Below, piece by piece: positions 26,370 through 36,319 of a stretch of 47,474 nucleotides of DNA. Below the pieces are notes generated by a model that did no database searches, had not been told where the DNA came from, and saw only the letters and a list, made by a program, of their open reading frames with translations. A program made the position numbers and the translations under genes. Source of the DNA: Thermoplasmatales archaeon E-plasma. GTDB taxonomy: Archaea > Thermoplasmatota > Thermoplasmata > Thermoplasmatales > Thermoplasmataceae. The stretch is taken from the NCBI GenBank assembly GCA_000496135.1, contig KI542675.1, positions 863,942 to 911,415 of the forward strand. Direction: 5' to 3'. Every line of letters begins with the position of its first letter. Position 1 is the first letter of the stretch.

Positions 26370-27278
26370 GTGCTAATATGTATCACGCTAAATATATATA
26401 GGGGGAGGGAATCCGGGAAGGTAAAAACAACAAACAAATTGATCGGAATAACAGCGGTGCTGATAGTGATCCTGTTTATGGGAATGGCAGTACAACCTTC
26501 TGCGGTAGAAGGTCAGTATATAAAAGCAATGCCAAATGCCAGTGTAAATGAAAAGATTATCAGGGATGTCAAAGTCCACAGGAATGCTTTCATCACTGAG
26601 AGAGAAATCATAAACAGAAACGGTTTCGTGCAAATAGATAAAATCTATGACAACATCACCGCACACATGAGTATCCATTACACATACTATGCATCTCCTT
26701 TTGGAAACCATGAGGATTTTGCAGTAAAGGGCACCACATACTCTTACGGAATGGTAATTTTATCTACATTCGCTTCAGATGTAAATAATATTGTTACAAT
26801 AGTTTCATTGCAGTCAAACACATTCAAAGGTGTAAACCCATCAAATATGCAAGTCCAACCTGTCCATACGGATAATATCAATCCGGGACAGGTATTATGT
26901 TGGACGGATGAAACAGGTTCAAACGGAGCATGGATTTTATCGTTCAATGAAATGAACACACAACGACTAATTGAATATATCACAATAGGTAGTATGACTT
27001 TTGGAGCTATCGTAAAAGTGGCGGCACCAGCCCTTGCAGTAGCATTAGATGTATCAATTACTTTCCTCACGAAGGTGTTTGCAGTTGTCTTTGCAGCAAT
27101 GGTTGTAACCGCAGGAGCTATAGCCTTAGTGGATGCGTTGGGGGGTTATCAAGGAATCTACTTTGGAATCGGTGAACATCATGTAAACCTTTGGTTCACG
27201 TCATTTAATGTTCCTTACCCGTTGCTTAATTCAAATCCTGCATCTGGTTTTACATCAGTAGGAACTGGATCCATCTGA
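26370..27278 (+). CDS. Cassette 3: exported protein with Ala-rich hydrophobic hairpin
   Basis: A 302-aa unrecognised protein. Its leader (KLIGITAVLIVILFMGMA, about residues 23-40) is nearly the same as cassette 1's, and the DNA is identical over 31 bp (26429-26459). The middle is polar. Residues 205-260 form an Ala/Val-rich hydrophobic hairpin (APALAVALDVSITFL; VFAAMVVTAGAIALVDALG). The tail is 40 residues. The GTG at 26370 is the longest start, but a TATA-like AATATATATA at 26391-26400 argues for a later one, perhaps TTG at 26439, matching cassette 1. Followed after 9 bp by a small membrane protein. Function unknown. Confidence 0.6.
   Translation: MLICITLNIYRGRESGKVKTTNKLIGITAVLIVILFMGMAVQPSAVEGQYIKAMPNASVNEKIIRDVKVHRNAFITEREIINRNGFVQIDKIYDNITAHMSIHYTYYASPFGNHEDFAVKGTTYSYGMVILSTFASDVNNIVTIVSLQSNTFKGVNPSNMQVQPVHTDNINPGQVLCWTDETGSNGAWILSFNEMNTQRLIEYITIGSMTFGAIVKVAAPALAVALDVSITFLTKVFAVVFAAMVVTAGAIALVDALGGYQGIYFGIGEHHVNLWFTSFNVPYPLLNSNPASGFTSVGTGSI
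26391..26400 (+). promoter_or_regulatory. TATA-like box for cassette 3
   Basis: AATATATATA sits 39 bp before the TTG that matches the cassette 1 start. A similar AAAATATATT at 20141-20150 stands just before the group II intron, as if the two cassettes once had matching promoters. Confidence 0.4.
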
Positions 27279-27287
27279 GGGAAACAA

Positions 27288-27545
27288 ATGGGAAAAGTGA
27301 ATAATTTTTTAAATCCTTTCATTATAAAAATACCAATAAAATCTAAAATAATTGAAAGACTTATTTATTTAGGCATGTTTGCTTTTGGCGTATGGATACT
27401 TTACTCTGCCGTTTCAGATACCTTGATGAATAGATATTCCGTTGATCTTTCTCTAATAATTGTTGTTTTGTTTTTTTATATAATTAGTGGAATCGATAAT
27501 TATAAACGAGAAGAAAAAAAGACATCTAAAACTGTTCAAAAATGA
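27288..27545 (+). CDS. Cassette 3: small membrane protein
   Basis: An 85-aa protein with two hydrophobic segments (about 25-45, LIYLGMFAFGVWILY; about 52-70, LSLIIVVLFFYIISG), a Lys-rich N-terminus and a Lys-rich tail (KREEKKTSK). ATG start with a weak GAGG ribosome site 9 bp upstream. It occupies the same place as the small membrane proteins of cassettes 1 and 2. No family recognised; an immunity-like role is conjecture. Confidence 0.6.
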   Translation: MGKVNNFLNPFIIKIPIKSKIIERLIYLGMFAFGVWILYSAVSDTLMNRYSVDLSLIIVVLFFYIISGIDNYKREEKKTSKTVQK

Positions 27546-29417: not shown

Positions 29418-30332
29418 ATGGAACGTACAAAAATCAGTGCGATTATCCTGATAGTTGTGATGCTGTTCAGTTTTTCCATAATATTGCAGCAACCATCAGG
29501 GAATGTTAGTATAGGCCACAAGGTAATGTCATCCGCCCAAATAAGCACATCAAGAACGGTAGTAATTCTTGTGCACGGATTCAATCCGGGTGATACTTCT
29601 GGAGCTCCATCAACCGGCACATGGCATTCTGGTGTTAACATATACCAGCAGCTCGTAAATGCAGGTTATCTGGTAGGGAGCGTTGAATATTATGGTCAAT
29701 TCAATATCCAATTTAGCAACGGATATACTTTTTCTGACCCTTCGTTTTTTGGCACATCAAATACACCTATAAGCGCAATTGGAAATGAGTTGGGTAACTC
29801 TTTGGAGACAATTTTTGCGAATAGCCAGTTGAATGTCAATATTATTGGATACAGTATGGGCGGTCTCGTGACACTGTATATGCTTGAGCATTATGACATG
29901 ACAAATATCAACCTCAAGAATGTAATATTTATGGCATCACCCTTTGATGGATCACCACTGGCTTCAATTGCGAGCTGCCTTGGATTATCTGGCTATACAG
30001 GCACGCAGGTAAATGAAATGACATCAGGTTCCAACTTCCTGACAAACCTGGGAAATTCAATAGGCAATGCAGTTTCTTATTATTCCTCAACAACATGGAT
30101 AGTCTATGCAGGAACATATGATCCATGGTGGGGATATGCATTATTTAATGGAGCTAACGACGGAGTTGTTTCAGAAAATTCAGCAACATACTTTGGCTAT
30201 AACTACCTGTTCACATTTTCAAGTGATATCCATACTGCATCACTGGACAGTTTCACATGGTCAGGAATCAGCTACTTCCAGGATCAGTCTGTTGCAAACA
30301 CAATAATGAGCAACTTCGCAGGAAGCTATTGA
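29418..30332 (+). CDS. Secreted alpha/beta-hydrolase, lipase/esterase-like
   Basis: A 304-aa protein. The N-terminal hydrophobic leader (residues 6-24, ISAIILIVVMLFSFSIIL) indicates export. VVILVHGFNPG is the oxyanion-side HG motif near residue 53. NIIGYSMGGLV holds the nucleophile Ser146 in a G-x-S-x-G elbow. Asp248 (NGANDGVVS) and His272 (SSDIHTAS) complete a likely triad. It would hydrolyse esters, perhaps lipids, outside the cell. TATA-like ATTATATA lies about 25 bp before the ATG, and a strong terminator follows. It lies between the two groups of hydrophobic-protein genes; whether it acts with them is unknown. Confidence 0.82.
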   Translation: MERTKISAIILIVVMLFSFSIILQQPSGNVSIGHKVMSSAQISTSRTVVILVHGFNPGDTSGAPSTGTWHSGVNIYQQLVNAGYLVGSVEYYGQFNIQFSNGYTFSDPSFFGTSNTPISAIGNELGNSLETIFANSQLNVNIIGYSMGGLVTLYMLEHYDMTNINLKNVIFMASPFDGSPLASIASCLGLSGYTGTQVNEMTSGSNFLTNLGNSIGNAVSYYSSTTWIVYAGTYDPWWGYALFNGANDGVVSENSATYFGYNYLFTFSSDIHTASLDSFTWSGISYFQDQSVANTIMSNFAGSY

Positions 30333-30640: not shown

Positions 30641-30684
30641 CGGTTATCAGAAAATTTATGTATATTGGAAAATTAAGCAATTCC

Positions 30685-31218
30685 ATGAATGTAGAAGTAA
30701 TGACATCGGATTTTCTTCTCTTACGTTCAAATGAGGGTCCCAGACTGGAAAGATCCTCTGGGCGTAAGGGAATAAAAAGGAGTGGGCAAGCCGATGGGAT
30801 TGTAAGCTTACTGACAGTAGTGCTGTTAATGGGTGCATTAGGTGTTCCAATGTATGCTGCGATGGAACTTGGTGCTTATAACGCCATCCCACTTGATTTA
30901 GGAAACCTTAATATTCACGTAGGCAGCGCACAAGCAGCATCTACTGGCGCTATGGGAGACATAGTTGCTTATATGTTATGGCACTGGGGAGCATATCCAA
31001 CATATAGTTTTCTAGTTTCAGCCATAGCGGGGGCGTTTGCTGGAGCAGGAGTTCCAATAGCTGGATCACTAATAAGTGCGGCAACTGATGCTTTTCTAGC
31101 AAGTGGTGCAGTGTCCGTTGGAAGTATTACTGATATTTTGTTGGTCACGGTGGCAGTGGTTGATCCTGTTACTCTTACCATAATCGGAGCTGTTGCTGCT
31201 GTGATTGTCGGGTATTAA
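30685..31218 (+). CDS. Gly/Ala-rich hydrophobic protein, putative bacteriocin-like precursor
   Basis: I know no family for this 177-aa protein. Residues 1-38 form a charged leader (ERSSGRKGIKR); residues 39-57 are signal-like and hydrophobic (GIVSLLTVVLLMGALG), with a Tyr-Ala-Ala exit. From 90 to the end it is Gly/Ala/Val-rich with helical hydrophobic runs (AIAGAFAGAGVPIAGSLI; LTIIGAVAAVIVGY). After residue 32 there is no Lys or Arg at all. The start at 30685 is chosen because AATTTATGT lies about 28 bp upstream; 30658 is also open, and the frame even extends into the MITE. It has its own terminator and is followed by an M48 protease and a SpoIIM-like protein, as in bacteriocin operons. Function inferred. 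Confidence 0.6.
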   Translation: MNVEVMTSDFLLLRSNEGPRLERSSGRKGIKRSGQADGIVSLLTVVLLMGALGVPMYAAMELGAYNAIPLDLGNLNIHVGSAQAASTGAMGDIVAYMLWHWGAYPTYSFLVSAIAGAFAGAGVPIAGSLISAATDAFLASGAVSVGSITDILLVTVAVVDPVTLTIIGAVAAVIVGY

Positions 31219-31236
31219 TCAAATACCCTTTTTTTA
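31210..31236 (+). terminator. Terminator between the putative precursor and protease genes
   Basis: GGGTATT and AATACCC form a 7-bp stem around a 5-nt loop and contain the precursor's stop codon. Eight T follow. It would make the precursor mRNA more abundant than the downstream protease and membrane genes. Confidence 0.7.
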
Positions 31237-31269
31237 TTTCTATTTTCTTAGGGATAGGTGATTTGTAAA

Positions 31270-32103
31270 ATGAATTCGTCCAACTCGCGAATAAAGAAAA
31301 CAGTAATTTTCTACACAGTTTCCTTTCTTGTTTTATCATTAATCTTGATAATATATCCGGTAATCGCAATGAGTTTTGACGCATCTATACTTTCACTGAC
31401 GATTTTCTTCATAGTGACATCTATTGGGAATTTCGTTATACAAAGGCAATCAGGCGGACTAGAGTTACGTAATTCACCGAGGTTCCTTAATAATTATAGC
31501 ATCAAAAATTTGATTATGTTCGAGGACGAATCGTTATCAAGAAAATACTCTGAGAAATTCATGGCTATTTCCAAAGATGGGGTGGCCATCTATTCATTTG
31601 AGAATACGGGAAAGTTTCCCCCTGCATTCATACGTATTTCGCACCACATACCTGATATTTTTGTCGACGAGCGATTTTTTTCTTATCTCGACCAAGCAGA
31701 TTTAGAAACCTTAATTTTACACGAACTTGGGCACTTTACGTACAGAGATAATTACAAAAAGCGTGTACTTGTGAACCTCTTTCTATTGTCCCTTGTTTTT
31801 TCCGTTCTATCAAGCGTCTTAATCTTCATATTGGGTTTCATAAACCAACTGTTTTTTATCCCAGTGATTCTGGTTAGTATATCACTTCTTTCGTTTGTAT
31901 TAGTTCTATATATCGCAATCAACTCGGAATTTGCTGCAGACAGATTTGCGGCAACGCAAAAAGGCAATACAAACGCTATGATTAATCTCCTTACGAAGGT
32001 ACAAGAGTTTGTATCAATTGATAAATACTCAAGAGCTAAAAAATTGAGGGTAAAGAAGCAGATTGATAGAAGGATCAAGAGGCTAAAAGATGAAGCTTCT
32101 TGA
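31270..32103 (+). CDS. M48-family membrane zinc metallopeptidase
   Basis: A 277-aa integral membrane protease. Two N-terminal hydrophobic helices (about 11-34 and 40-57) precede the zinc motif HELGH at 151-155. Two more helices follow (about 167-190 and 194-217), then NSEFAADRFA with the third zinc ligand Glu220 and Asp224. This is the HtpX/Ste24/BlaR1-type M48 arrangement. The ATG at 31270 is preferred, with AGGTG about 10 bp upstream; GTG at 31258 is open. Its stop overlaps the SpoIIM-like gene's start by 14 bp. Its place directly after the putative precursor suggests it cleaves that protein; this is inference. Confidence 0.88.
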   Translation: MNSSNSRIKKTVIFYTVSFLVLSLILIIYPVIAMSFDASILSLTIFFIVTSIGNFVIQRQSGGLELRNSPRFLNNYSIKNLIMFEDESLSRKYSEKFMAISKDGVAIYSFENTGKFPPAFIRISHHIPDIFVDERFFSYLDQADLETLILHELGHFTYRDNYKKRVLVNLFLLSLVFSVLSSVLIFILGFINQLFFIPVILVSISLLSFVLVLYIAINSEFAADRFAATQKGNTNAMINLLTKVQEFVSIDKYSRAKKLRVKKQIDRRIKRLKDEAS

Positions 32104-33106
32104 CTTGGGTGACAGAGTAATAGCATACTTTACAGAACAATCGTTTTTGGTTGCATTGTCTATCATTATTGATTTTGCGTTTATGAAAAAATCGTACATT
32201 TTAGGGTTTTTTGTTTTATACCAAATCGATTTTATTACTGGAATTAGGAACATTTTTACAACACAGTATGGGCTGATTGATCTCGCTATACTAAGTATAG
32301 TCTCATTTATCTATTACACATTTGAATCTCTTACTAATTTTGGTATAGCATCACTCATTTTTCACAAGAGAATAATAACAAAATACTCAATTAGACCGGC
32401 ACTGAAGGTAAGGCTAATTCTGGTGAGAAATGCAATAAAGTCCTTTTTCTTAATAGAGTTTTTCAATTTCCTCTTCGTTTTAATTTACAGAAAATACATG
32501 CAAACTGCCTATGATAGAACAACTAACTTAATCGTTTCTGAAATAAACGAAAACGATCATAAATCCCCCGCGCACCAACTAGTTTATTCTTCAATCATAG
32601 TCTATTATTCCATTTTCGGACTATTATTATTACTGTACTTATATATTTCTCCAATAGCTGCTTTGCCCAGAGGAACTGGGAGCTCCAGTTACCATTTTTA
32701 CACTTTTTTCAAGAGTATTCTTACTAACAATATGGAGTTGGATTTATTTAAGTATGTTTTGAGTGGTTTTACATTATTCATCGGTACGTTCATTAATTTG
32801 TACAGTTCTACAATTCTTGAAACTGTGGTAATGGCTGGTTTAATTAGGGGCTCCACAGCAAACTCTGCTATGAGATATATTCTGCCTCAATTCTTTCCGG
32901 AAACTCTTGGATATATCTTTGGGATTGCGGTTGCAATGGTAATAACTCACTTCATTCTCAGTTTTTTTCAGTCTGCGCTGAGAAGAGAGAGATTTTCCTA
33001 TTTCCTAAGCAAAAGCAATAATTACGGAATAATGGCAATAACATTTCTTGCCATGTCCGTTTCTCTTCTAATAATAGGCGCTCTAATCGAAGCCTCGATA
33101 GGATAA
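32090..33106 (+). CDS. SpoIIM/DUF95-like polytopic membrane protein
   Basis: A 338-aa protein with about seven hydrophobic helices. The C-terminal part (residues 205-338) follows the SpoIIM/DUF95 pattern: a helix ending IGTFINLYSSTILETVVMAG, then YILPQFFPETLGYIFGIAVAM, equivalent to the 'LPHGIFELPAIxxAG' motif, and a final helix closing in LLIIGALIEASIG. DUF95 proteins are a hallmark of circular-bacteriocin gene clusters and also occur elsewhere. Translationally coupled to the M48 gene. The N-terminal 200 residues match nothing I recognise. The SpoIIM call is from pattern, with no alignment run. Confidence 0.65.
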   Translation: MKLLDLGDRVIAYFTEQSFLVALSIIIDFAFMKKSYILGFFVLYQIDFITGIRNIFTTQYGLIDLAILSIVSFIYYTFESLTNFGIASLIFHKRIITKYSIRPALKVRLILVRNAIKSFFLIEFFNFLFVLIYRKYMQTAYDRTTNLIVSEINENDHKSPAHQLVYSSIIVYYSIFGLLLLLYLYISPIAALPRGTGSSSYHFYTFFKSILTNNMELDLFKYVLSGFTLFIGTFINLYSSTILETVVMAGLIRGSTANSAMRYILPQFFPETLGYIFGIAVAMVITHFILSFFQSALRRERFSYFLSKSNNYGIMAITFLAMSVSLLIIGALIEASIG

Positions 33107-33281: not shown

Positions 33282-34578
33282 TAAGGGCTTACCGAATATT
33301 AACATAACAAATATTATTAGACTACTTATGCATGTATTACCATGGATAATGATAAACAGTATACATGGTGGATCAAAGCTATTTCTGGGGCTGACGAGGT
33401 TCAGGCAAGGCGGTTCGCAGCCGCAATAGCGCTTGAGATGGGGCGTGGAGGGGTGTCAAGAGTAGTTGAACTGACAGGCATGTCGCACCTGACCATTGAT
33501 AAGGGGATAAAAGAACTTAAGAAAACTGAAAAGCTTGAAATTCCGGGAAGGCTTCGTTCTGCAGGAGGAGGAAGGAAAAGAATTGAGAATAAGGATCCGA
33601 GTGTTATTGCTGATCTGGAAAAAATAATGGATGAGAATACCGCAGGTGACAACATGAGTCTTCTGAGATGGAGCAATAAATCCACCTACAGGATTGCAGA
33701 TGAATTGAAATTGATTGGCCATAAGATCGATCCAGATACTGTGGGAAGGATACTGAAGGAAAACGATTACTCATTGCAGTCGAACATAAAGAACAAAGAA
33801 GGGGGTTCATCAGAGGATAGAGATGCACAGTTCAGGTACATAAACGAAAAAGGGAAGGAATTCATGAATAATGGAAACCCCGTGATATCCGTTGATGCAA
33901 AGAAAAAGGAACTCATTGGAGAATTCAAGAATCCGGGAAGGACATGGAACAAGACAGGAGAAGCAACGGAGGTTAATGTGTATGATTTTCCCAATCTTGG
34001 CGTTGGCAAAGCAGCACCTTATGGAATATACGATACAGGAAGGAATGAAGGCATGGTTAATGTGGGAAAAAGCCATGAAACATCTGAATTCGCCGTTGAA
34101 AGCATCAGGCAATGGTGGTTTCTCATGGGAAAGGAGAGATATCCTGATGCAAAGGGATTGATGATATGTGCAGACGGAGGTGGTTCCAACGGATCACGCA
34201 ACAGAGGATGGAAGATTCACCTGCGGGAACTTGTGAATCAGATCGGCATACCCATAACAGTATGCTATTATCCTCCGGGAACAAGCAAATGGAACAAGAT
34301 AGAACACCGTATGTTTTCATTTATCAGCATGAACTGGAGGGGAAAACCGCTTGTGAATTTTGAGACGGTCATAAAACTTATAGCCACCACAAAAACCAGG
34401 AATGGTATCACGGTAGCTGCAAGAGTGGATGATAAAGAATATGCCACGGGGATCAAGCATTCAGACAAAGAAATGGAAAAGTTGCGCATTGAACCACACC
34501 TGTTGCATCCAAAATGGAATTACACAATCCTACCTCAGAATGACTAATTCTGATAAGTTATTATTCGGTAATCCCTTA
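33282..34578 (+). mobile_element. ISAzo13-type insertion sequence, complete
   Basis: A 1.3-kb element with ends TAAGGGCTTACCGAAT (33282) and the complement of TAAGGGATTACCGAAT (right end 34578), near-perfect inverted repeats. One intact transposase gene lies between. A GAT triplet is found just outside both ends and may be a short target duplication. It closes the three-gene unit on its right side. Confidence 0.75.
33342..34547 (+). CDS. ISAzo13-family transposase
   Basis: A 401-aa DDE transposase with the hallmarks of this family: the DNMSLLRWSNKSTYRIADEL segment, EGGSSEDRDAQFRYINE-type linker, VISVDAKKKELIG with the first Asp, GKAAPYGIYD, CADGGGSNGSRN with the second Asp, and PPGTSKWNKIEHRMFSF with the Glu. 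Length is normal and no stop codons interrupt it, so it may be active. ATG start. Confidence 0.93.
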   Translation: MDNDKQYTWWIKAISGADEVQARRFAAAIALEMGRGGVSRVVELTGMSHLTIDKGIKELKKTEKLEIPGRLRSAGGGRKRIENKDPSVIADLEKIMDENTAGDNMSLLRWSNKSTYRIADELKLIGHKIDPDTVGRILKENDYSLQSNIKNKEGGSSEDRDAQFRYINEKGKEFMNNGNPVISVDAKKKELIGEFKNPGRTWNKTGEATEVNVYDFPNLGVGKAAPYGIYDTGRNEGMVNVGKSHETSEFAVESIRQWWFLMGKERYPDAKGLMICADGGGSNGSRNRGWKIHLRELVNQIGIPITVCYYPPGTSKWNKIEHRMFSFISMNWRGKPLVNFETVIKLIATTKTRNGITVAARVDDKEYATGIKHSDKEMEKLRIEPHLLHPKWNYTILPQND

Positions 34579-34730: not shown

Positions 34731-35141
34731 ATGAGTGAATTTTTAGATAACGACGAATACGAAAGATGGATTTCTAGTTCCAAGAGAACGTTAGAATCTG
34801 CCATCAACGATAGAGATTCCCATTTTCATAACTGGTCTTGTTTCAAGGCTCAGCAATCCGCAGAATATGCCATAAAGGCATACATGAAAGGTATTGGGAG
34901 AGACTCATTTGGGCACTCTGTTTCCGGTTTACTGAAGAAGGCTGATTTTCCAGATGAAGTGATTAACAAATCAAAAACTATCGACAAATTCTATATTCCG
35001 ACCAGATACGCAGATGCTTGGTCTGAAGGGACGCCTGATGAATATTACACCGAAGCGGATTGCAATGTCGCAATTGAGTGCTGCAAGTTCATTATTAATG
35101 AGGTTGAAAAAAAGTGGAAATCGTTGAGCAAAGAAAGTTAG
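34731..35141 (+). CDS. HEPN-domain protein, toxin of a HEPN-MNT pair
   Basis: A 136-aa all-helical HEPN protein. ERWISSSKRTLESA opens the first helix; NWSCFKAQQSAEYAIKAYM is the typical second helix; GRDSFGHSVSGLL contains an R-x4-H motif as in ribonuclease HEPN toxins. In type VII systems the HEPN RNase is silenced by its nucleotidyltransferase partner, which here overlaps by 28 bp. The leaderless ATG at 34731 has a TATA-like TTATTTAT about 28 bp upstream, next to MITE A3. Ends with TAG. Confidence 0.88.
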   Translation: MSEFLDNDEYERWISSSKRTLESAINDRDSHFHNWSCFKAQQSAEYAIKAYMKGIGRDSFGHSVSGLLKKADFPDEVINKSKTIDKFYIPTRYADAWSEGTPDEYYTEADCNVAIECCKFIINEVEKKWKSLSKES

Positions 35142-35452
35142 AAAGGGAAATAAAGATTAGGTCTGCCATTGAATATTCCAAGGCTTTAGATTTCAAATCC
35201 ACCGTGATATTAATAGGTTCCTACGCAAGAGGGGATTTCAATCTTTGGAGTGATGTTGATCTTTTGATAATTGGTGATTTCACAGGGAACCCGGTAAGGA
35301 GATCGGAAAAATTAGATTTTCCAGCGGGATATGAACTGATTTTACTCACACCGGAAGAGATCTCTATTATGAAAGGCAAGAGAAATAAATTTCTGATCGA
35401 TTCTTTTGCGGAAGGAGTGGTTCTAAGGGATGACTTTCAGTATTTTTCATAA
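35114..35452 (+). CDS. MNT-type nucleotidyltransferase, antitoxin of a HEPN-MNT pair
   Basis: A 112-aa minimal nucleotidyltransferase. VILIGSYARGDFNLWSDVDLLII carries the G-S-x-A-R-G-D and D-V-D motifs with both metal-binding Asp. It would modify the HEPN toxin by nucleotide transfer to neutralise it. The GTG start lies within the HEPN gene, so the two are translated together. No frame damage. Confidence 0.88.
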   Translation: MEIVEQRKLEREIKIRSAIEYSKALDFKSTVILIGSYARGDFNLWSDVDLLIIGDFTGNPVRRSEKLDFPAGYELILLTPEEISIMKGKRNKFLIDSFAEGVVLRDDFQYFS

Positions 35453-35664: not shown

Positions 35665-36090
35665 TTATATTGGAAGTTCCTCCACTTTTCTAACCTCTAT
35701 CCCAATCTTTTTTGCATTATCATACATCTCTCTGTCATCTGTCAATAATGCAAGATTAAGCCTCTTACTGTAGAAAACATAAGATGCATCATAAAATGTC
35801 AATCCAATAGATGCAGAAAGCGTCATTATCTCAGATATATGGACTGGTGAAAGTCTTATCACTTTAATCTTACAGATTACTTTTTCTATTTCCTTCGTCA
35901 ACTCAATTATAACATCATTCTTCAGTCCCTTTATGTGACCATCCTTTCCTTTGGTCAATACGCTTCCTATCTCGTATCCTGTGAGGTCTAATATGTATGA
36001 GTCAGTCATAATGGCTCGAATTGTATCTTCAGATTCGATGAAAAACAGGGTAAATAATGAACTTGAGTCCATAATGTAGCTCGCCGCCAT
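35665..36090 (-). CDS. PIN-domain toxin, VapC-like
   Basis: A 141-aa PIN ribonuclease. The acidic residues appear in order: YIMDSSSLF (first Asp), LTGYEIGSVL (Glu), FYDASYVFYS (Asp) and LLTDDREMY (Asp). The Met at 36090 gives the normal PIN N-terminus one base after the antitoxin stop; Met at 36105 would overlap it. It would cleave RNA when freed from the upstream RHH antitoxin. Intact. Confidence 0.85.
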   Translation of the reverse strand: MAASYIMDSSSLFTLFFIESEDTIRAIMTDSYILDLTGYEIGSVLTKGKDGHIKGLKNDVIIELTKEIEKVICKIKVIRLSPVHISEIMTLSASIGLTFYDASYVFYSKRLNLALLTDDREMYDNAKKIGIEVRKVEELPI

Positions 36091-36091
36091 T

Positions 36092-36319
36092 TTATTGCCT
36101 TTCATCCCTATCCTTCCTTAAATCGTTGAGAAGTTGATTTCGATCCACATTCTCAAGAATGTTATGAATCTTAGATAGGCTTTCCAAGAGTTCCTCTTCA
36201 TTCCTTCTTTCGATCTCATTTTTCAAGGATTTTCTCACGATCTCAGAAATGTTGATTTTCAATTTCTTTGCTTCAGCGAGAGTCTCCTCATCCAAACGAA
36301 TACTTACTAACCTAGTCAT
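36092..36319 (-). CDS. Ribbon-helix-helix antitoxin, VapB-like
   Basis: A 75-aa protein. RLVSIRLDEETLAEAKKL is a CopG/RHH beta strand and first helix, ISEIVRKSLKNEI the second helix, and the charged C-terminal helix (HNILENVDRNQLLNDL) would bind the PIN toxin. It likely represses its own promoter. First gene of the pair, adjacent to the PIN gene. Confidence 0.85.
   Translation of the reverse strand: MTRLVSIRLDEETLAEAKKLKINISEIVRKSLKNEIERRNEEELLESLSKIHNILENVDRNQLLNDLRKDRDERQ

Follow-up and report, generated by a model that had tools for sequence, protein, structure and literature searches.

The 47,474-nucleotide stretch of the Thermoplasmatales archaeon E-plasma genome analysed here (contig KI542675.1, positions 863,942 to 911,415; hereafter the window) carries on its plus strand, at 30685-33106, a three-gene unit that encodes a putative peptide precursor (PRE), an HtpX/Ste24-like M48 protease (M48) and a polytopic SpoIIM-domain protein, an RDD-SpoIIM fusion (SPO). 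Comparison with related loci shows that this unit consists of two modules, the leader of the precursor and SPO forming the constant part and the core of the precursor and M48 an exchangeable cassette. This modularity, in which the leader varies with SPO and the core with M48, is new here. We think it probable that the unit is an antagonistic-peptide (archaeocin) system of the acidophilic Thermoplasmatales with a polymorphic-toxin-like organisation, in which core and M48 are swapped together, M48 serves in immunity and/or processing and SPO is a leader-linked exporter. An earlier reading of the window from its letters (the sequence-only reading) had already proposed a processing, export and self-protection unit for a membrane-active peptide and had placed it with the circular bacteriocins. 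The conserved unit, hypervariable cores, tandem cassettes and orphan proteases described below fit peptide conflict, and this part of the proposal stands; membership of the circular bacteriocins is not supported.

Within the archaeal family, 13 genomes carry complete sets of PRE, M48 and SPO, at 16 loci in all (the window, L033, L034, L035, L036, L037, L038, L040, L041, L049, L053, L054, L055, L056, L057 and L059), one of which, L041 (G000:C3:653474-656345), is a second complete copy in the window's own genome. The sequence-only reading had named a search for the same gene order in other Thermoplasmata as a check, and the order PRE-M48-SPO on a single strand was indeed found at 14 of the 16. 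At the other two, L057 and L059, the precursor is divergently oriented yet still adjacent, and the linkage has therefore outlasted rearrangement. The ratio of nonsynonymous to synonymous substitution rates (dN/dS) of the PRE core between the window and its nearest relative is 0.04, and the core is under purifying selection. Because the set recurs in many genomes and the core shows this constraint, it is not a chance arrangement. The operon idea also survives a search for homologues without their neighbours: nearly every complete precursor adjoins either M48 or, where the locus is divergent, a different small gene in its place. The gene that is found alone is M48 and not the precursor, and the conflict reading is therefore strengthened rather than refuted.

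Across 15 type-1 loci, similarity matrices were compared for the leader, the core, M48 and SPO. M48 was found to follow the core (r=0.67, p=1e-4; r=0.94 with SPO held constant, 8 loci) and SPO to follow the leader (r=0.94, p=0.0009). No tracking was seen between SPO and the core (r=-0.16, p=0.73) or between M48 and SPO (r=-0.12, p=0.66). This test identifies the unit of exchange and by itself does not prove that M48 acts on the core. As it is M48 and not SPO that is linked to the core, a core-specific role in immunity or processing is more plausibly assigned to M48 and leader-linked export to SPO; the sequence-only reading had left open which gene would be the protector.

The borders of the modules can be seen at the DNA level. 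Between loci L036 and L034a, which belong to different genomes of the Ferroplasma group, identity is 88% in the leader and as far as about 20 nucleotides (nt) into the core; the remaining core and M48 have no detectable DNA similarity, and 85% identity resumes from the first base of SPO. The same right-hand border at the exact SPO start codon is present in the pairs L036/L042 and L034a/L042, and within one base of it in L037a/L041. Two neighbouring cassettes in one genome, L037a and L037b, share 97% identity in the leader, 31% in the core and 24% in M48, and the cassette of L034b and L042 is 96% identical across 1.67 kb in two genomes. Short N-terminal remnants of SPO accompany tandem cassettes, for example at L037, L034 and L048, and many tandem or decayed cassettes terminate in such a remnant of approximately 46-78 codons. 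Recombination within the conserved leader and the 5' portion of SPO, if it exchanged or duplicated cassettes, would be expected to leave such remnants. In Ferroplasma acidarmanus Fer1 (L169:4658-5505 and L043/L082) decayed cassettes were observed in which PRE, M48 and SPO are all broken, which shows that the system turns over; an intact type-2 operon lies elsewhere in the same genome.

In its evolutionary design the unit has those features of polymorphic toxins (PMC3482391) that can be assessed from sequence: a constant N-terminal trafficking part, a C-terminus swapped by recombination, a partner gene just downstream that is exchanged with it and also exists as an orphan, and tandem cassettes. 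The unit differs in that a small hydrophobic peptide stands where those systems have an enzymatic toxin domain, the partner is a protease with a conserved active site, and a constant putative exporter lies downstream of the cassette.

An M48 with intact HExxH motif persists beside a damaged precursor at L064, L160, L168 and L170 and is present with neither precursor nor SPO nearby at L161, L164 and L171, while at L163 the precursor is absent and only a 46-amino-acid (aa) SPO remnant lies beside the intact protease. This count leaves out L162, which is cut by a contig end, and L172, which is without HExxH. In a tree whose deep branches are uncertain the orphan M48s nest among the operon M48s, apart from the single-copy housekeeping M48s, and dN/dS values of 0.19-0.51 for comparable pairs indicate that they are constrained. 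The asymmetry, with M48 kept where the precursor is broken or missing and the reverse seen once, looks like that of orphan immunity genes. The slot of M48 beside a precursor-like open reading frame (ORF) is taken at three divergent loci (L060, L061 and L097) by a small cationic protein with two transmembrane (TM) helices (pI 9.5-10). It resembles the small cationic immunity proteins known from bacterial circular bacteriocins (PMC6131525); such a small cationic hydrophobic protein was absent from the window operon and from the type 1 and type 2 loci. Where M48 is absent an S24/S26-like membrane peptidase may also be found near SPO (L061:168-1145 and L058:2976-3959; E 0.0004-0.02). Processing and protection may be separate jobs, which M48 covers wholly or in part. 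The divergent type is also represented by L060:3801-6444 and L093:644-4039, in which the precursor-like protein is larger (235 aa; the L093 copy is truncated) and lies opposite a 475-480-aa RDD-SpoIIM protein; a two-TM protein of approximately 130 aa is present and there is no M48.

Several observations weigh against a matched, protective M48. Core and M48 are adjacent, and joint transfer alone could yield their correlation. M48 is the fastest-evolving part of the unit, the window and L033 sharing 80% identity in the core and 43% in M48 and L036 and L065 sharing 75% and 32%; similar cores with such dissimilar proteases would be unexpected for a tightly matched immunity protein. The dN/dS of the orphan M48s includes the time that preceded loss of the precursor, and at L042, the sole reverse case, an intact precursor is found with frameshifted M48 and SPO. 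In an alternative reading M48 is only a maturase that cleaves the leader, immunity comes from SPO or from the unprocessed precursor, and the co-variation of core and M48, for which physical linkage suffices, is a by-product of adjacency. The S24/S26-like signal peptidase that replaces M48 at L058 and L061 is in agreement with this, as is the presence among M48 relatives of Ste24, a protease of peptide precursors. Such a restricted role does not readily account for intact M48 persisting where a functional precursor is missing nearby, for M48 following the core and not the leader, or for the immunity-like two-TM proteins that hold its slot in loci without it, and we regard it as possible but rather unlikely.

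Two further alternatives also bear on the exchange data. The hypervariable and presumably exposed core, the constant anchor and the gene conversion-like exchange would also suit antigenic variation of a surface protein, with the core diversified to evade viruses, M48 in quality control and SPO as an assembly factor. This would leave unexplained the dedicated protease that accompanies every variant, the persistence of M48 on its own and the presence of the system in only about a quarter of genomes (20/77), and appears improbable. Alternatively the core may harm its own cell unless M48 degrades it, as in an intracellular toxin-antitoxin or membrane stress module; a hydrophobic helical product, a protease removing a labile partner and small mobile cassettes are all consistent with this. 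Export is suggested instead by the membrane helix of the conserved leader and by the presence of a dedicated polytopic protein, and the co-variation of leader and SPO is tight, such that we consider this the least probable of the explanations discussed here. The archaeocin reading remains the one that we favour.

The precursors are 154-182 aa long. Their initial 66-93 residues are conserved and consist of a charged N-terminus, a single hydrophobic helix and an invariant Pro; a Ser/Thr/Ala-rich linker follows and the core, of 71-95 residues, is entered through the motif GD[IL][IV]xYE...H..G. Lys and Arg together make up 0.8% of the cores as compared with 10.9% of M48 and 7.8% of SPO. The cores contain no Cys, have a pI of 4.1-5.4 and a grand average of hydropathy (GRAVY) of 0.7-1.4, and are hydrophobic right up to the C-terminus, where the last residue is mostly Tyr, Phe, Trp or Ala. 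AlphaFold predicts five helices for the window core (predicted local distance difference test, pLDDT, 70-82 over most of the core), and a Ferroplasma core of 74 aa is likewise modelled with five (mean pLDDT 81.5, predicted template modelling score 0.68). On this basis the unit could be imagined to make a true head-to-tail circular bacteriocin, with M48 cutting off the leader and, together with SPO, joining the ends of the core, and SPO exporting the product and protecting the producer. SpoIIM has been termed class-defining for circular bacteriocins (PMC13289728), and a SpoIIM domain was found beside the precursor (in 11 of 17 relatives, the window SPO scoring below the gathering threshold). 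The enterocin AS-48 and gassericin A clusters likewise combine a SpoIIM/DUF95 protein with a leader and a hydrophobic multi-helix core. Also consistent are the membrane-spanning leader with its conserved Pro motif ahead of the core, and the five predicted helices of a core whose last helix, hydrophobic and closed by an aromatic residue or Ala, reaches the very C-terminus. Low pI and high hydrophobicity recall the group ii circular bacteriocins, which are acidic and very hydrophobic (PMC6131525), and M48 genes have been mentioned in two bacterial clusters (PMC8659200).

Against this, described circular bacteriocin clusters comprise precursor, DUF95 and ATP-binding genes, and the ATP-binding protein is required in all of them (PMC8534725). 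A scan for the Walker A and signature motifs of ATP-binding cassette (ABC) ATPases found none beside any PRE-M48-SPO locus, two unrelated matches lying at least several kb away. The profile and fold searches of the precursor that the sequence-only reading had suggested gave neither a family nor a significant fold match. PRE had no match in Pfam, NCBIfam, PHROGs, PADLOC or a PDB sequence search, and none of 22 precursors matched a circular-bacteriocin profile up to E=10 (Pfam, NCBIfam). Foldseek comparison of the full precursor model and of the 74-aa core model with the PDB returned only matches with E>=3, among them no circular bacteriocin, Foldseek being weak on helical models of 74 aa; the five predicted helices may or may not form a saposin-like or related compact fold. 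A PDB sequence match of the precursor to enolase (E=0.7) was dismissed as noise. The unit differs further in the fusion of SpoIIM to RDD, in the length of its precursor, in a slightly larger core, in the position of M48 inside the exchanged cassette and in its archaeal host. With no linked ATPase and no profile or fold match, SpoIIM alone being insufficient, membership is not established. The unit may work as a SpoIIM-dependent bacteriocin system and should not be classed as a circular bacteriocin; we consider a true head-to-tail circular bacteriocin rather unlikely. A bolder version, in which the cassette M48 is a dedicated leader peptidase (possibly cyclase) as well as the immunity factor of a SpoIIM-type bacteriocin whose acid-triggered, Lys/Arg-free peptide is circular, would make this unit, with its diversification through swapped cassettes, the first system in Archaea to resemble circular bacteriocins; we consider this a long shot.

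In the archaeocin reading that we prefer, we infer secretion, toxicity, activation at low pH and each enzyme-substrate relation as follows. Delivery would depend on the constant leader with its membrane helix and on the constant RDD-SpoIIM protein, between which the exchangeable cassette lies. The leader would insert the precursor into the membrane, the core would be freed by a protease, M48 or in a few divergent loci the S24/S26-like peptidase, and SPO would export it. In the acidic exterior Asp and Glu would be protonated and the Lys/Arg-free core would turn neutral, inserting into membranes as a bundle of helices to the detriment of relatives. M48 might cleave the producer's own core and so shield the cell, or serve as the core-specific maturase, or both.

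Known archaeocins (halocin C8, sulfolobicins and SSV9 B310-type toxins) likewise come from small-gene loci of archaea, their precursors bearing a signal or leader. The halocin C8 precursor is cleaved to toxin and immunity parts. Sulfolobicins have been described as two proteins with signal peptides (PMC8628083). In the texts consulted, M48 and RDD-SpoIIM partners or cassette exchange are reported for none of these, a separation that is one of descriptions only. No published description of the PRE-M48-SPO unit was found in the literature searched, earlier flagging in a 2019 review (Makarova et al.) not being excluded.

All features of the window locus are on the plus strand, and its three ORFs are as the sequence-only reading claimed. 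PRE (30685..31218; ORF with aligned homologues) encodes 177 aa ending in Tyr. A TATA-like box read from the sequence, TTTATGTATA (30655..30664), lies 21-30 nt 5' of its ATG, a spacing that would fit a leaderless archaeal mRNA beginning at this codon, and an AT-rich box is present at comparable distance 5' of most homologous loci. Alignment of homologues and structure prediction place the constant leader region at residues 1-90 (30685..30954), with a charged N-terminus, a hydrophobic helix at about 33-56, invariant Pro69 and the Ser/Thr/Ala-rich linker. The variable core, its start placed by the conserved motif, covers residues 91-177 (GDIVAYMLWHWG...VIVGY; 30955..31215); it contains no Lys, Arg or Cys and four Asp (pI 4.1, GRAVY 1.38), and its helices are predicted at 93-99, 107-120, 127-140, 145-155 and 164-176. 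A terminator-like hairpin (GGGTATT, 5 nt, AATACCC, then T7; 31210..31235) overlaps the PRE stop codon, and as a result PRE may be more abundant than M48 and SPO. L033, the nearest relative, has a hairpin and T-run of different sequence at the equivalent spot; a general terminator 3' of the precursor was rejected, as it is present only in these two loci.

M48 (31270..32103) encodes a membrane metalloprotease of 277 aa from the ATG (alternative GTG at 31258) with four predicted TM helices, matching PF01435 (E=6e-8). The HELGH zinc-binding motif (residues 151-155; 31720..31734) and Asp224 of SEFAAD (31939-31941), HELGH and SEFAAD having been recognised in the sequence-only reading, were confirmed by an alignment of 22 M48s in which HExxH and this Asp are invariant. 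All 22 match Pfam M48, and the family profile matches Ste24p at 6e-13 and HtpX at 1e-5. With HtpX/Ste24 proteases the cassette M48 shares HExxH, the distal Asp motif and membrane helices flanking the catalytic domain; it differs in its tie to a precursor cassette and its extreme divergence, the family scoring far under the HtpX equivalog cut-offs with a mean identity of 24% among type-1 loci. The number of TM helices before HExxH is predicted to be even in most M48s, and the active site is therefore predicted to be cytoplasmic. PADLOC matched M48 to a '2TM effector' (4e-5) over the TM region alone; this and other weak matches to membrane proteins were dismissed as reflecting hydrophobicity only.

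SPO (32090..33106; 338 aa, approximately six predicted TM helices) overlaps M48 by 14 nt. Its N-terminal half is RDD-like and its SpoIIM domain covers residues 199-336 (32684-33097). The SpoIIM-like C-terminus proposed from the sequence is borne out: the match to PF01944 (E=3.6e-5, 24.2 bits) is just under the Pfam cut-off of 26.9, and of 17 SPO relatives 11 match SpoIIM (best 2.9e-9) and six an N-terminal RDD (best 3e-12), indicating an RDD-SpoIIM fusion across the family.

SPO relatives were found in 20 of 77 family genomes and precursors likewise in 20 of 77. When 400 genomes of the class were searched with a profile, SPO was confined to the order (22 genomes). An alignment-based pattern scan of an 84,980-species collection, to which sensitivity outside the class is limited, found 16 loci, all in Thermoplasmata and including Ferroplasma acidarmanus Fer1; a single SPO protein as query in a scan of genome contigs gave no match. 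The PRE-M48-SPO genes of Fer1 lie at about 989095-991576 of NC_021592.1, and the putative core of their precursor extends from near GNFLYYYFTHG to ...AIAAY. No SPO was found in viral contigs or in plasmids, and an origin from either is unsupported.

Just 5' of the operon (29418-30332) lies a lipase/esterase-like alpha/beta-hydrolase with a hydrophobic N-terminal segment, and immediately 3' (33342-34547) an ISAZ013-type transposase (PF07592, 3e-143). Other gene pairs of the window were also noted. A protein of 302 aa that is secreted or anchored in the membrane and matches no Pfam family (26370-27278) is followed by a small cationic 85-aa two-TM protein (27288-27545), and the pair is also adjacent in G009 (86% and 87% identity) and G008 (45% and 34%). 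The first 31 or so residues of the 302-aa protein recur at 72-81% identity on proteins of other lengths (G030, G009), which suggests that secreted proteins form a second polymorphic family here, the two-TM protein being its candidate immunity partner. HEPN (PF05168, 8e-24; 34731-35141) and nucleotidyltransferase (PF01909, 4e-9; 35114-35452) genes form a typical HEPN-MNT toxin-antitoxin module, and on the minus strand a CcdA-like antitoxin (36092-36319, 1.5e-7) and then a PIN-domain protein (35665-36105, 1e-4) form a VapBC-type pair.

To our knowledge few antagonistic peptides of acidophilic archaea have been recognised. A detailed genome study of one uncultured acidophilic archaeon using antiSMASH and BACTIBASE reported no bacteriocin loci (PMC10354927). 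In the present system a protease is encoded inside the exchanged unit, beside the peptide, in cultivable organisms such as Ferroplasma acidarmanus Fer1, and its role in maturation, protection or both is directly testable. For circular bacteriocins, of which the leader peptidase and cyclase are unidentified (PMC8659200), the archaeal unit would be useful, and its modular exchange provides a ready panel of natural chimaeras. The system offers a way to study the making of such peptides and the survival of their producers.

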